From the NCBI GenBank assembly GCA_946886065.1, contig CAMPHU010000256.1, forward strand, positions 1 through 6,348: 6,348 bases of DNA. Direction: 5' to 3'. The notes beneath the pieces are model-generated. The model saw nothing but the letters and a program-made list of their open reading frames with translations, was not told the origin of the DNA and made no database searches. Position 1 is the stretch's first letter, and the number at the start of each line of letters is the position of its first letter. A program made the position numbers and the translations under genes. Shown piece after piece: positions 1,568-5,506 of this stretch. This DNA is from an uncultured Massilia sp. (GTDB taxonomy: Bacteria; Pseudomonadota; Gammaproteobacteria; Burkholderiales; Burkholderiaceae).

Positions 1568-2266
1568 ATGTCCTACATCCTCGAAGCCCTCAAGAAAGCC
1601 CAGGCCGAGCGCCAGATCGGCAACGCGCCGACCATCCATGCGCCGGCCCCGAGCTATGCGGCGCCGGCCGGTCCCGCGGGCGGCAGGCAGCGCACCCTCC
1701 TGATCGGACTGGGCGCGGGCGCCGTCGTCGCGGCGGCCGCCGTCCTGTGGCTGCGGGCGCCGGGCGAACAGCCGGTCAAGCTGGCGGCTGCGCCGGCGCC
1801 GGCCCAGCCGGCCCCCACTGTTGGGTCACCGGCTGCGCCACCCGCCGCGGCGCCCGTGACCGTTCCGCAGCCGGTAATCGCGCCCCCGCCGGCCGTACCG
1901 GAGCCGCGTGCGAAGGCAAAACCGGTACGTGAACCCGCGCCGCCGCCCAAGGCCGCGCCGGCGCCCGTGCCGGAACCGGTTGTGGCTCCACCTCAGCCCG
2001 AGCCGGTCCGGGTGGCCGCCGCCCCGGCGCCCGAAGACAGGGTCCGCAGCCTGCAGGAGCTGCCGGAAGCGCTGCAGCGCGAGATCCCGAAGGTGGCCTT
2101 CGGCGGCTATATCTATTCGCCCAACGCGGCCGAGCGCCTGCTGCTGGTCGACAAGATGCTGCGCCGCGAAGGCGAGGAGGTCGCGCCGGGCCTGGTGCTG
2201 GAGCGCATCCTGCCCAAGGCGGCCGTGATGAACTACCGTGGCAACCGCTACCGTGTCGGCTACTGA
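1568..2266 (+). CDS. gspB: GspB-type type II secretion accessory protein
   Basis: Partner of GspA; together they form the complex needed for secretin assembly in ExeAB-type systems. The 232-residue protein starts with a short cytoplasmic segment, [15 protein letters not shown], a typical GspB N-terminus. A membrane helix follows at about 43-62, then a long Pro/Ala-rich periplasmic linker (about 64-155). The C-terminal T2SSB/GspB_C domain (about 159-232) contains the family-like GGYIYS stretch and ends in RGNRYRVGY. The ATG at 1568 is chosen because the protein then begins with the conserved N-terminus; the reading frame extends 27 bases upstream, but that part overlaps gspA. GGGAAG at 1552-1557 can serve as ribosome binding site, and the one-base gap to gspA suggests translational coupling. 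The linker is low-complexity, so its similarity to other proteins means little. Confidence 0.9.
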
Positions 2267-2269
2267 GGG
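2265..2269 (+). promoter_or_regulatory. Ribosome binding site for mobB on the gspB stop codon
   Basis: GAGGG overlaps the gspB TGA stop and lies 10 bases before the GTG at 2280. The upstream GTG codons at 2238 and 2253 have no purine-rich sequence before them. This supports the 2280 start and implies that translation of mobB is coupled to gspB termination. Confidence 0.45.
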
Positions 2270-2279
2270 CCGCGGCAGG

Positions 2280-2813
2280 GTGCTGGCCGTGGTCGGCTGG
2301 TCCGGCAGCGGCAAGACCACCTTGCTGGAATTCCTGGTCGGCCGCCTGGCCGGCGAGGGCCTGCGCGTGAACGTGGTCAAGCACAGCCACCACGACATCG
2401 AACTCGAACCGCCGCGCAAGGACAGCGCCCGCCTGCGCATGGCCGGCGCTGCCGAGGTCATGATCGCTTCGCCCTACCGGGTGGCGATCCTGCGCGAACT
2501 GCGCGGGGCCGAAGAGCCGCCGCTGGCCGAGCACCTGGCGCGCCTGGCGCCGGCCGACCTGACCCTGGTCGAAGGTTATAAATGGGAAGCGCTCCCCAAG
2601 CTGGAGGTGTTCCGCCCGGCGCTGGGCAGGCCGGCGCTGTATCCGCAGGATGAAGACATCGCCGTGGTCGTGTCCGACGCGCCCCGTGCGCCGGATGCGG
2701 GGCAGGGCGTCGCCTGGCTGGACCTGAATGCGCCGGATCAAGTCCTGGCGTGGTTGCGCGACTGGCTGCGCGCCAGCCCTCAAGTTCCGGTCCAGGCTGC
2801 CGTTAACGGCTGA
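2280..2813 (+). CDS. mobB: Molybdopterin-guanine dinucleotide biosynthesis adapter protein MobB
   Basis: GTP-binding protein that assists MobA/MoeA in forming the guanine-dinucleotide form of the molybdenum cofactor in the cytoplasm. With the GTG at 2280 the protein has 177 residues, close to E. coli MobB (about 175). Visible motifs are a P-loop GWSGSGKT at 6-13, VKHSHHD at 33-39, a KDS motif at 47-49 followed by RLRMAGA, and VEGYK at 97-101. All match the MobB order. In-frame GTG codons at 2253 and 2238 would add 9 or 14 residues and overlap gspB; 2280 is preferred for its ribosome binding site and because the first beta strand then starts at once, as in homologues. No moeA or mobA lies nearby; the gene simply follows the secretion pair. 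Its last codons contain a likely sigma-28 promoter for the next gene. Confidence 0.92.
2780..2806 (+). promoter_or_regulatory. Likely sigma-28 (FliA) promoter for the downstream motility gene
   Basis: The -35 element TCAAGTTC (2780-2787) matches the known FliA consensus TAAAGTTT at 6 of 8 positions. An 11-base spacer, the canonical length, follows. The -10 element GCCGTTAA (2799-2806) matches GCCGATAA at 7 of 8. Transcription would start near 2813, giving a leader of about 30 bases before the ATG at 2845 with its AGGAGA ribosome binding site. The site lies within the last codons of mobB. A gene of a motility-annotated family directly downstream makes the match much less likely to be chance. 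No transcription data were available. Confidence 0.68.
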
Positions 2814-2844
2814 TACGCCTCATAGGGCTGACTAGGAGAGCATC

Positions 2845-3042
2845 ATGGATGTCACCGGAATTGCCAAACTGGCAAGCAGCATCGCCGAAACCGGCAACCG
2901 CCAGGAAGTCGCGCTTGCCGTGCTCAAGCGTGCGCAGCAGATCGAGATGTCGTCGGCTACCCAGCTGATCGAGGCGGTGCAGGCGACCTCCAGCGCCAAC
3001 CTGCCGCCCCACCTGGGCAACAAGATCAACACCACCGCCTGA
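2845..3042 (+). CDS. YjfB-family putative motility protein (65 aa)
   Basis: Small cytoplasmic protein resembling the YjfB 'putative motility protein' family (Pfam YjfB_motility). The molecular function of this family is not established to my knowledge. The sequence has a helical N-terminal half beginning [11 protein letters not shown], a central VLKRAQQIE helix, and the family-like C-terminal tail [14 protein letters not shown]. It has no cysteine, signal peptide or membrane segment. The length of 65 residues is normal for the family. The start is fixed by AGGAGA at 2834-2839, five bases before the ATG. It has its own likely sigma-28 promoter in the end of mobB, so it is probably expressed with late flagellar genes rather than only by read-through from gspAB-mobB. 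Assignment rests on recognising the N- and C-terminal pattern, not on a search. Confidence 0.8.
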
Positions 3043-3124
3043 AGACCCGCGCCGGTTGGCACAGCTTGCCTTTCCCGCGCCGCGGGGCGACACTGCTGTT
3101 TTGCCTCATCCACTGGAGTTTGTC

Positions 3125-3436
3125 ATGTCGCACCGCCACGCCCTGATCGCCGCCGCCCTGGCCGGCGTTTGCGCCGCCTCTGCCACCTCTGCCCAGGCCG
3201 CCGGCCAGGAGGAGATGGGCACACCCAAGGCCGACCAGGAAATGTGCTACGGCGTGGCCAAGGCCGGCCAGAACGACTGCGGCACCGCCACCCACGGCTG
3301 CATGGGCGCCGCCGCCGCCGACAACGATCCGGCCGAATGGAAGTTCGTCGCCAAGGGCACCTGCGCCAAGCTGGGCGGTTCGCTCAAGCCGGGCAAGGCC
3401 GACCAGCCGGCCGAGCCGGCCCCCGTCACCAAGTAA
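3125..3436 (+). CDS. bufA: Bufferin-type RiPP precursor, DUF2282 family (BufA1-like)
   Basis: Exported 103-residue precursor peptide. Residues 1-25 form a signal peptide with an Ala/Leu-rich core and a likely signal peptidase I site after AQA. The mature part carries four cysteines, Cys41, Cys52, Cys59 and Cys80. They sit in the DUF2282 pattern: [13 protein letters not shown], then THGC, then [14 protein letters not shown] Pro/Ala/Lys-rich tail follows. In characterised bufferins, MNIO enzymes convert some of these cysteines to thiooxazole-type heterocycles and the product binds copper in the periplasm; the same role is inferred here. The ATG at 3125 has a GGAG six bases upstream (3115-3118). 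The frame runs open from an ATG at 3056, but that would put 23 residues before the signal peptide. The modifying enzyme begins two bases after the stop. A fifth Cys (16) is inside the signal peptide; its context AGVC does not fit a lipobox. Confidence 0.9.
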
Positions 3437-3438
3437 GC

Positions 3439-5091
3439 GTGACCCTGGCGCAGGCGGGCGTCGGCGTCGGGCTGCGCCCGCCGCATGTCCGCGCCTTCCT
3501 CGAAGGGCGCCAGCCGGTCGGCTGGCTCGAGGTCCATTCCGAAAATTATCTCGCCCGCGCGGGCTGGGACTGGCACGTCCTGCGCCGCCTGCGCGAGGAC
3601 TATCCGCTCAGCCTGCACGGTGTCGGCCTGGGTCTCGGCTCGGCGCGCGGTTTTTCCGAAGCCCATCTGGCGCGGGTACGCGAACTGGTGGAGGCGGTCG
3701 ACCCCTTCCTGGTATCCGAACATCTGTGCTGGGGCGCGCTGGCCGGCCGCCAGCTGAACGACCTGCTGCCCTTGCAGCTCGACGCCGCCGTCCTGGACCT
3801 GCTGTGCGCCCGGGTCCAGCGGGTGCAGGACCTGTTGCGCCGCCGCATCCTGGTCGAAAACGTCTCGAGCTACGTGCGCTTCCGGGGAGACACGATGAGC
3901 GAGGCCGACTTCCTGGCCGAACTGGCGCGCCGCACCGGCTGCGGCATCCTGCTCGACGTGAACAACCTCTACGTCAACCAGCGCAACCATGGGGAAGACG
4001 CACTGGCGGCGATCGCCGCCTTGCCCGTGGGGAGCGTGGGCGAGATCCACCTGGGCGGCCACCTCGAGACAGCGGTGGCGGTGATCGACCACCACGGCGC
4101 CGCCATCGCGCCGCCGGTGTGGGCGCTGTACCGCGCGGCGCTGGAGCGCTTCGGACGGGTGCCGTCCCTGGTCGAGTGGGATACCGACGTGCCTGCGCTG
4201 GACGTGCTGCTGGAAGAGGCGGGCAAGGCGCGCGCCATCGCCCAGCAGTTCCACCCCGCCGGACAGGCGGCCGGCCCCGTCACCGCCGTAACCGGCGGGG
4301 AGGCCGGTACCCAAGCCCTGGCCGGCCTGCAGGAAGGCTTCGGCCAGGCGCTGGCCGATCCCGGGGCGCAGGCGCCTGACCTGCGCGGCGATGCCGCGCG
4401 GCTGGCCGTCTACCGCGCCAACCTGGCCGGCAACTGGCGCCGGGCCCTGGCCAACGCCTATCCCGTCGTCGAGCAACTGGTCGGCGATGAATTCTTCGGC
4501 GGCCTGGCGCACGCCTACGGCAAGGCGCATCCTTCGCAAGACCCGGACCTGAACCGCTTCGGCGCGCAGTTCGCGGCCTTCCTGGAGGGTTTCGCCCCTG
4601 CCGCCGACCTGCCCTGGCTGGGCGACATGGCGCGCCTGGAATGGGCGCTGCACCTGGCCTGGCAGGCGCCCGACCTGGCCCCGTTGCCCGCCGCGGCGCT
4701 GGCCGGCCTCGATCCGGCGCGGCTGGCCGGCGCCCGCCTGGCGCTGCACCCCGCCTGCGCGCTGCTCGCCAGCCGCTGGGCGTTGGCGCGCCTGTGGCTG
4801 GCGCACCAGGACGGCGGCCCGACCTTTCCGGAGCAGCTGGACGCACCCGGCTGGGCGCTGGTCACCCGCGCGGGCTGGAAAGGGCAGGTGACGGAAATCG
4901 GCCGGGCCGACTGGCTGGCCCTGGGGCGCCTGGCGGCCGGAGACAGCCTCGCCGGCGCGCTGGACGCGGCGCTGGCCGATGCGGAGGAGCGTGGCGAGGA
5001 GTTGCCGGATGTGGGTGCGATGCTGCGCCGCTGGTTCGACCTGGGCGCCGTGGCCGCGATTGCGGTGGACGGCGTCCGGATCGGGGACTAG
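3439..5091 (+). CDS. bufBC: Fused MNIO (DUF692/BufB) and DUF2063 (BufC) bufferin maturation protein
   Basis: A 550-residue fusion. Residues 1 to about 271 are an MNIO (multinuclear non-heme iron oxidative enzyme) TIM-barrel. It shows all family signatures: GVGLRPPH near the start, VHSENY (His33, Glu35), LHGVGL (His60), SEHLCWG (Glu94, His95), NDLLPL (107-112), VENVSSY (Glu140), LLDVNN (Asp173, Asn175), EIHLGGH (Glu202, His204), an Asp-His-His-Gly at 217-220 and VEWD (Glu246). Several of these are the expected iron ligands. After a Gly/Ala linker, residues from about 293 to 550 are a DUF2063 domain with [20 protein letters not shown] and DMARLEWA patterns. DUF2063 has often been labelled 'putative DNA-binding', but in RiPP operons it acts as the partner that presents the precursor to the MNIO. 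The GTG at 3439 is the only start fitting the N-terminus; it lies two bases after the bufA stop and has no strong ribosome binding site, implying coupling. No frameshift or stop separates the domains. Confidence 0.9.
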
Positions 5092-5104
5092 GGGAGGGCG
5101 GTGC

Positions 5105-5389
5105 TCAGTGGAAGGCGCGCAGGATGCGGTCTTCGCCGGTGCGGTCGCGGAAGCGCTCGTTGGCGGCGCGGGTGGCGGCCATCATGCGTTCCAGCTGGGC
5201 GTCCTCGAAGCGCGCCAGTTCCTCGTTGGCCGCTTCCAGCGCCAGCGCCAGCTTCGCGCGCGCGTTCTGGTATAGCGTACTGGTGTAGTGGTCGGTATTC
5301 TTGAGCAGTTCTTCCGCGTTCTCGATCACGAGCCGCAGGTCGCCGATCAGCTGCTCCTGCGACTGCTGATGCTGTTCCGGGGTTTCCAT
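5105..5389 (-). CDS. DUF883/ElaB-YqjD-like helical protein without membrane anchor (94 aa)
   Basis: Predicted all-helical 94-residue protein. Residues about 10-60 (EQLIGDLRLVIENAEELLK and following) resemble the N-terminal part of DUF883 proteins (E. coli ElaB, YqjD, YgaM). Those are stationary-phase inner-membrane proteins with a C-terminal glycine-rich anchor. Here that anchor is absent: the chain ends in a charged RDRTGEDRILRAFH stretch, so the protein is probably soluble or peripheral. Heptad-like Leu/Ala spacing suggests a coiled coil. The ATG at 5389 is preferred because AAAGG lies 8 bases upstream on this strand; a GTG at 5398 would add three residues but would overlap that site. It is the third gene of a minus-strand series after fumC and the S4 gene, but the 124-base gap and an AT-rich region suggest its own promoter. 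The family link is tentative. Confidence 0.72.
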   Translation of the reverse strand: METPEQHQQSQEQLIGDLRLVIENAEELLKNTDHYTSTLYQNARAKLALALEAANEELARFEDAQLERMMAATRAANERFRDRTGEDRILRAFH

Positions 5390-5425
5390 CGCCTTCACCT
5401 TTAAGCCGGATTGATGACGTCTTAA

Positions 5426-5431
5426 AATATA
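5426..5431 (-). promoter_or_regulatory. Possible -10 element for the DUF883-like gene
   Basis: On the minus strand this reads TATATT (5 of 6 matches to the sigma-70 -10 consensus) within the most AT-rich stretch of the window. It would place a start near 5420, about 30 bases before the ATG at 5389. No convincing -35 element is seen at 16-18 bases, so this is weak. Confidence 0.28.
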
Positions 5432-5454
5432 AACAAGGAAGCCCCGCTTTGTTT
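5431..5454. repeat. Short imperfect inverted repeat
   Basis: AAACAAGG (5431-5438) faces CTTTGTTT (5447-5454) across an 8-base loop, with 7 of 8 pairs. It sits between the S4 gene and the DUF883-like gene, next to the possible -10 element. It could be an operator or a weak transcript hairpin; the sequence does not tell which. Confidence 0.3.
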
Positions 5455-5482
5455 GTTAGCGCGCAAACATAGCCGACACATC

Positions 5483-5506
5483 CGGAGCGTGTCCGTGCAC
5501 GCTCCG
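5483..5506 (-). terminator. Perfect 9-bp GC-rich hairpin downstream of the S4 gene
   Basis: CGGAGCGTG (5483-5491) and CACGCTCCG (5498-5506) are exact inverted repeats with a 6-base loop. The hairpin begins 7 bases after the stop of the S4-domain gene in that gene's reading direction, the usual place for a terminator. No T-run follows the stem on the minus strand, so it may instead be a 3'-end-stabilising or processing hairpin, or a partial terminator. Confidence 0.4.

Follow-up and report, generated by a model that had tools for sequence, protein, structure and literature searches.

Can an MNIO enzyme and its DUF2063 partner be made naturally as one protein, and if so, what would the fusion accomplish? 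The question is raised by a single open frame in the window, the whole 6,348-nucleotide stretch of DNA from an uncultured Massilia sp. that we analysed. We put at roughly 0.8 the probability that this frame encodes a single-chain bufferin maturase, in which a DUF2063-RRE half would recruit BufA and an MNIO half would oxidise its cysteines, the fusion having probably arisen once from bufB-bufC.

The gene order of the window is that of a bufferin locus (Table 1). A DUF2282 precursor gene lies directly 5' of the MNIO gene, as in Buf1 clusters, and the GTG start of the fused gene stands 2 bases past the bufA stop. Together with a score above cut-off for the MNIO_BufB model NF050167 (353 bits for the N-terminal half; cut-off 310, NCBIfam), this supports the bufferin setting proposed in an earlier note made from the sequence alone. 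BufB and BufC of Buf1 belong to the same families, follow the precursor gene in the same order and act with the same precursor type, but they are the products of two genes, whereas the window encodes one 550-residue chain. As one frame takes the place of separate bufB and bufC, the locus is a variant of the Buf1 cluster. The Buf2 precursor model NF050166 gave 25.8 bits, below its cut-off of 60. Neither Pfam nor NCBIfam matched a DoxX or sigma-factor gene among the main frames of the window, and no promoter-like site was found in 2700–5500, where the chance expectation is 0.1. The mobB and YjfB-type genes adjoin bufA; nothing ties either to the bufferin genes. We take the AAA/peptidoglycan-binding and T2SSB genes to be a GspA/GspB-like pair.

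Table 1 Features of the window and their positions, counted from its first base.
Feature	Position	Strand	Remark
AAA/peptidoglycan-binding gene and T2SSB gene	in the window	+	
mobB and YjfB-type putative motility gene	2238–3042	+	directly upstream of bufA; Pfam
bufA, DUF2282 (Buf1) bufferin precursor, 103 residues	3125–3436	+	PF10048, E 6.9e-20
fused bufBC gene, 550 residues	3439–5091	+	GTG start, TAG stop
MNIO (BufB, PF05114) domain, residues 7–268	3457–4242	+	Pfam, E 2.8e-98
linker, about residues 269–296	4243–4326	+	
DUF2063 (PF09836) domain, residues 297–382	4327–4584	+	Pfam, E 1.2e-22, 80.4 bits (cut-off 27.2)
RRE-like C-terminal part, about residues 428–546	4720–5076	+	structure model
DUF883 gene, S4-domain gene, end of fumC	3' of fused gene	−	

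The fused gene is one open frame with no internal stop, matched by PF05114, PF09836 and NF050167, and the earlier claim of a single 550-residue MNIO-DUF2063 protein stands. That claim hung on DUF692 homology in one half and DUF2063 homology in the other; both families match in Pfam. The junction, previously put near 4250–4320, falls within the linker that we place. The second half was described as a complete-looking DUF2063 domain, and this is right in part: PF09836 is present, but it covers residues 297–382 only, and the remainder models as an RRE-like domain. The partner half is therefore larger than DUF2063, consisting of DUF2063 and a full-length RRE-type domain, about 250–260 residues in all, in the PME-type 1 (BufC) layout. 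Its score against NF050145, the model of the oxazolin partner HvfC, was 58.3 bits, below the cut-off of 142; of four split partners from related clusters, three also scored below that cut-off and one gave no match. The fused protein reached 33 bits against the ChrH model NF050165, far below the cut-off of 600 (NCBIfam), and the partner-half sequence had no match in the PDB. The whole-chain structure model is confident (pLDDT 95.8; pTM 0.93, which is no direct measure of an interface), and its two halves resemble TglH and TglI, which are partners in a complex.

Production of a second protein from an internal start was considered and rejected. Residues 266–300 of the window protein contain no in-frame ATG, GTG or TTG, so a single chain is the expected product. 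Among 24 frames from fused loci, an ATG lay near the linker in eight, and in one a start codon was accompanied by a Shine-Dalgarno-like stretch.

An assembly or sequencing error, or a lost stop, could also join two genes on paper. We searched about 5.8 billion proteins twice, with the window protein and a distantly related fused one from Massilia sp. W12 as queries (2,894 and 3,115 matches, respectively); the best 120 of each were listed, giving 235 distinct proteins. All 235 carry both Pfam domains within 524–611 residues, and both halves were also detected in all of them by profile search. The same fused architecture recurs in genomes, some of it on contigs of 5–6 Mb. This recurrence refutes the artefact reading, to which we assign a vanishingly small probability.

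Where, then, is the fused form found? Named sources of the listed fused proteins include Massilia, Telluria, Duganella, Rugamonas, Pseudoduganella, Noviherbaspirillum and Paucimonas, and a Janthinobacterium locus (L006) is fused as well. A few of the listed records carry odd labels, among them a Sphingomonadaceae MAG (P0209) and a Comamonadaceae-labelled MAG (L009), for which misbinning or transfer are possible sources. A scan of species genomes gave 216 relatives, and the best 80 loci were kept: 8 are fused, 71 are split and one (L052) lies on a contig without a partner half. Odd labels or places occur in 2 of these 80 named loci, including L009; L009 and L116 end at contig boundaries. The Massilia genus sample comprises 62 genomes of the genus to which Massilia sp. 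ST3 belongs; 44 of them match and 43 of the 44 are fused: 38 show one match across both halves, 4 have a longer linker in a single frame and 1 is cut by a contig end. The remaining genome (G039, L088) carries a fused gene broken across frames, either a pseudogene or a sequencing error. The family sample yielded matches in 265 of 392 genomes, at least 149 of which cross the junction in one frame by hand count. Since an "open frame" in the genome scan reads through stops, rows of the genus and family samples with one stop were fetched too; all five (L101, L112–L115) proved to be single frames, so that the stop in each is the terminal one.

Matches were found in 145 of 398 genomes of the phylum sample, and among the matches listed, 6 span both halves and uninterrupted fusion occurs only in G001 and G013, both of them genus-sample genomes. 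The candidates G489, G734, G405 and G687 (L102–L105) were rejected as fusions because each has an in-frame stop at the junction; an ATG follows right after the stop or one codon on in three of them, and about 38 residues precede the partner domain in L103. Six long open frames of the phylum sample (L106–L111) were likewise discarded, all six being split. The fused form is thus common and conserved in one clade, with none elsewhere among the matches listed, odd labels aside, and the fusion looks like a trait of Oxalobacteraceae. A second MNIO, at 41–50% identity, is present in 13 genus genomes; the eight that were fetched (L090–L097) are all split, which shows that fused and split maturases coexist. 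Pattern matching picked out a DUF2282-like precursor at two of these eight second loci (L094 and L095).

To place the origin of the fusion, we compared two trees. The tree of the MNIO half (119 rows, with 20 of the first 120 proteins and L081, L088 and L052 left out) needed three fused/split changes, two of them forced by starred branches, and set Massilia sp. W12 and one MAG apart from the other fused rows. These three changes leave room for a second origin or for a re-split (L008). The tree of both halves, with the linker removed, had 73 rows: 51 fused, after 8 close relatives were dropped, and 22 of the 79 split. In it, all 51 fused rows grouped with a single split row (L008) in one set, supported at 99/97, beside split Undibacterium, Rhodocyclaceae and Paraburkholderia; W12 and the stray MAG joined the fused set once both domains and more taxa were used. 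Constraining the 51 fused rows to one clade was not rejected (p-AU 0.338). Two separate origins, suggested by the MNIO-only tree, were set aside on the reunion of these rows and the AU result, which leave a single origin unproven. A single origin, with L008 re-split or unplaced, is the simplest reading of these trees rather than a proof. L008 itself (930–2529 of a Paucimonas MAG) is a split bufB-bufC pair whose genes overlap by 17 bases. It falls within the fused clade or next to it, and may have split again or represent a sister lineage in which no fusion took place.

The split relatives suggest how little a join would take. In many of them, a putative bufC start codon lies 4 to 17 bases before the bufB stop, and in others further on. 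Across 12 close split loci, BufB tails measure 12–28 residues, and BufC starts, parsed in six, 7–10 residues; in these six the two tails sum to 19–36 residues, and L015, whose start is uncertain, would give 52. Fused linkers are 18 to 89 residues long, with a median of 32 (230 of 253 parsed), and as the split sums fall within this range, little or no extra sequence would have been needed. In composition the fused linkers are rich in Ala (27%) and Pro (11%); the Gly/Ala linker of the earlier note therefore holds roughly for the window but not across the clade. Some long linkers (P0083, P0072 and P0114) resemble translated palindromic repeats inserted in frame, and we presume that motifs of the PAQAGTH or GNDG type are of this kind.

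The linker is also the least conserved stretch of the fused protein and the part where model confidence is lowest (83 at residues 271–280 and 76 at 281–290). With its Ala/Pro-rich composition and variable length, it might be cut in the cell, the working enzyme then being the usual two-chain complex. We consider such cleavage quite improbable: no conserved cleavage motif was seen by eye in the linkers of 20 aligned proteins, and the domain pair fits as one chain in the structure model.

A further reading is neutrality: a chance fusion became fixed in one lineage, and the protein works just as a split pair does, gaining nothing. A single origin would suffice for the distribution observed, and the split form persists as well, in the second MNIO of the genus genomes. 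The partner half also evolves at a similar relative pace in fused and split pairs. At MNIO distances of 0.2–0.3, the partner-to-MNIO rate ratio is 1.80 for fused (453 pairs) and 1.85 for split (9 pairs), and at 0.3–0.4 it is 1.55 (629 pairs) and 1.65 (34 pairs), the pairs not being independent; these pairwise ratios show no clear difference of the kind that looser constraint on a fused partner half would leave. Against the neutral reading, 43 of 44 matching genus genomes have kept the fusion and only one possible re-split (L008) was seen, and an engineered fusion of a related pair is markedly more productive than the co-expressed proteins (PMC13419390). We regard neutrality as a real, if minority, possibility.

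Is the MNIO half equipped for catalysis? N175, D217 and H219 are invariant in all 20 fused proteins that were aligned, and the same holds for H60, H95, E140, D173, H204, E246 and D248. The iron ligands, assigned from the MNIO family, presumably lie among the latter seven. The former three correspond to N175, D242 and H244 of HvfB in an alignment through 3bww that assumes a constant numbering offset of one, and their replacement in HvfB kills activity (PMC13419390).

The putative substrate shows a Sec-type signal peptide by eye, with Cys 41, 52, 59 and 80 outside it. In Buf1, modification affects the central cysteines, and the outer two are joined by a disulphide (PMC12452194), which makes Cys52 and Cys59 the likeliest targets. 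All 18 fused loci searched have a precursor homologue upstream of the fused gene, within about 100 bases in 17 and about 360 bases away in L083. In 21 of the 22 fused loci that were parsed, the first 13 residues of the BufA signal peptide (3125–3199 in the window) resemble one another strikingly for a signal peptide, which would be consistent with use as a recognition sequence; preliminary results of Antoine et al. place the signal peptide within the bufferin recognition sequence (PMC12452194).

The closest parallel to the fused protein was made by hand. According to a 2026 preprint (PMC13419390), HvfB and HvfC interact weakly, mixing the separate proteins yields no activity and HvfC is required for the active mixed-valent diiron state. 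Because of this weak binding, an HvfB-HvfC fusion was engineered, and the linker-free HvfBC gave markedly more product and more of the mixed-valent state than the co-expressed pair. HvfBC joins the MNIO C-terminus to the partner N-terminus in the same order as the window protein, but it is man-made, has no linker and acts on an EGKCG-motif precursor, whereas the proteins of the fused clade are natural, carry a linker and go with a DUF2282 precursor. The natural fusion may serve the same end. The confident whole-chain model and the HvfBC work together favour the permanent 1:1 complex that the earlier note had suggested. Halves pairing across chains in a swapped dimer is an unlikely arrangement, given the pTM of the single-chain model and the size of linker-free HvfBC, which agreed with one HvfBC pair (PMC13419390).

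Other known systems differ more. MovX and ChrH are named as exceptions to separate MNIO partners (PMC13419390) and, similar to the window protein, have an MNIO domain and an extra C-terminal domain in one chain (PMC12636315, PMC12452194, PMC13419390). That domain is an RRE or winged helix in MovX and of unknown function in ChrH, neither being called DUF2063 in the accessible texts, whereas it is DUF2063 in the window. Cyanobacteriota have the extra ChrH domain as a stand-alone protein, which points to an evolutionary fusion (PMC12636315). MbnBC and TglHI, unlike the window protein, are separate chains with other products and precursors. Bufferins fused to other domains have been described in PMC12452194, the accessible part of which shows no MNIO-partner fusion. 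In the accessible part of the 2009 NGO1945 paper (PMC2954202), one DUF692-DUF2063 protein is counted among 216 DUF2063 proteins; its architecture is the same, with DUF692 N-terminal, and it is neither named nor interpreted there. In the open literature, subscription papers and supplements aside, we found no description of a clade-wide natural MNIO-partner fusion. What is new is this clade-wide natural form in related soil bacteria, the architecture itself having been counted in 2009. It is a conserved, probably single-origin, natural one-chain MNIO-partner enzyme, a variant of a known pair and no new system.

Taken together, we propose the following route for the single-chain maturase. The C-terminal DUF2063-RRE half would hold the BufA precursor, probably via its signal peptide, and would keep the MNIO half in the active mixed-valent Fe(II)/Fe(III) form; the transfer of the precursor from the partner half to the active site, as the earlier note had it, is likewise plausible. 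In the cytoplasm, the MNIO half would turn core cysteines of BufA, most likely Cys52 and Cys59, into 5-thiooxazoles. Sec would export the modified BufA, which may then buffer periplasmic copper. The fusion itself was probably born once, from adjacent bufB-bufC in an ancestor of most Oxalobacteraceae, and would set one partner per enzyme. By analogy with the studied pairs, chemistry, cofactor state, substrate recognition, the copper role and the benefit of a 1:1 complex are all predicted along these lines.

A bolder proposal, to which we give somewhat short of even odds, is that the partner never leaves the enzyme in the whole clade and that the catalytic cycle includes no dissociation step. 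If true, precursor loading, repeated cysteine oxidation and release to Sec would all proceed from an intact enzyme-partner unit, always ready for the active mixed-valent state, and the clade would be a natural answer to the weak binding that led chemists to HvfBC.

The value of the finding lies in its usefulness more than in surprise. The MNIO family is large and growing, and weak partner binding, in at least one case (HvfB-HvfC), hampers structural and spectroscopic work. A natural single chain, of which hundreds of relatives have been sequenced, supplies enzyme and partner at 1:1 for crystals, EPR and kinetics, and the natural split versions in some of the same genomes serve as controls. The fused enzyme also provides a test of whether the partner must ever leave.
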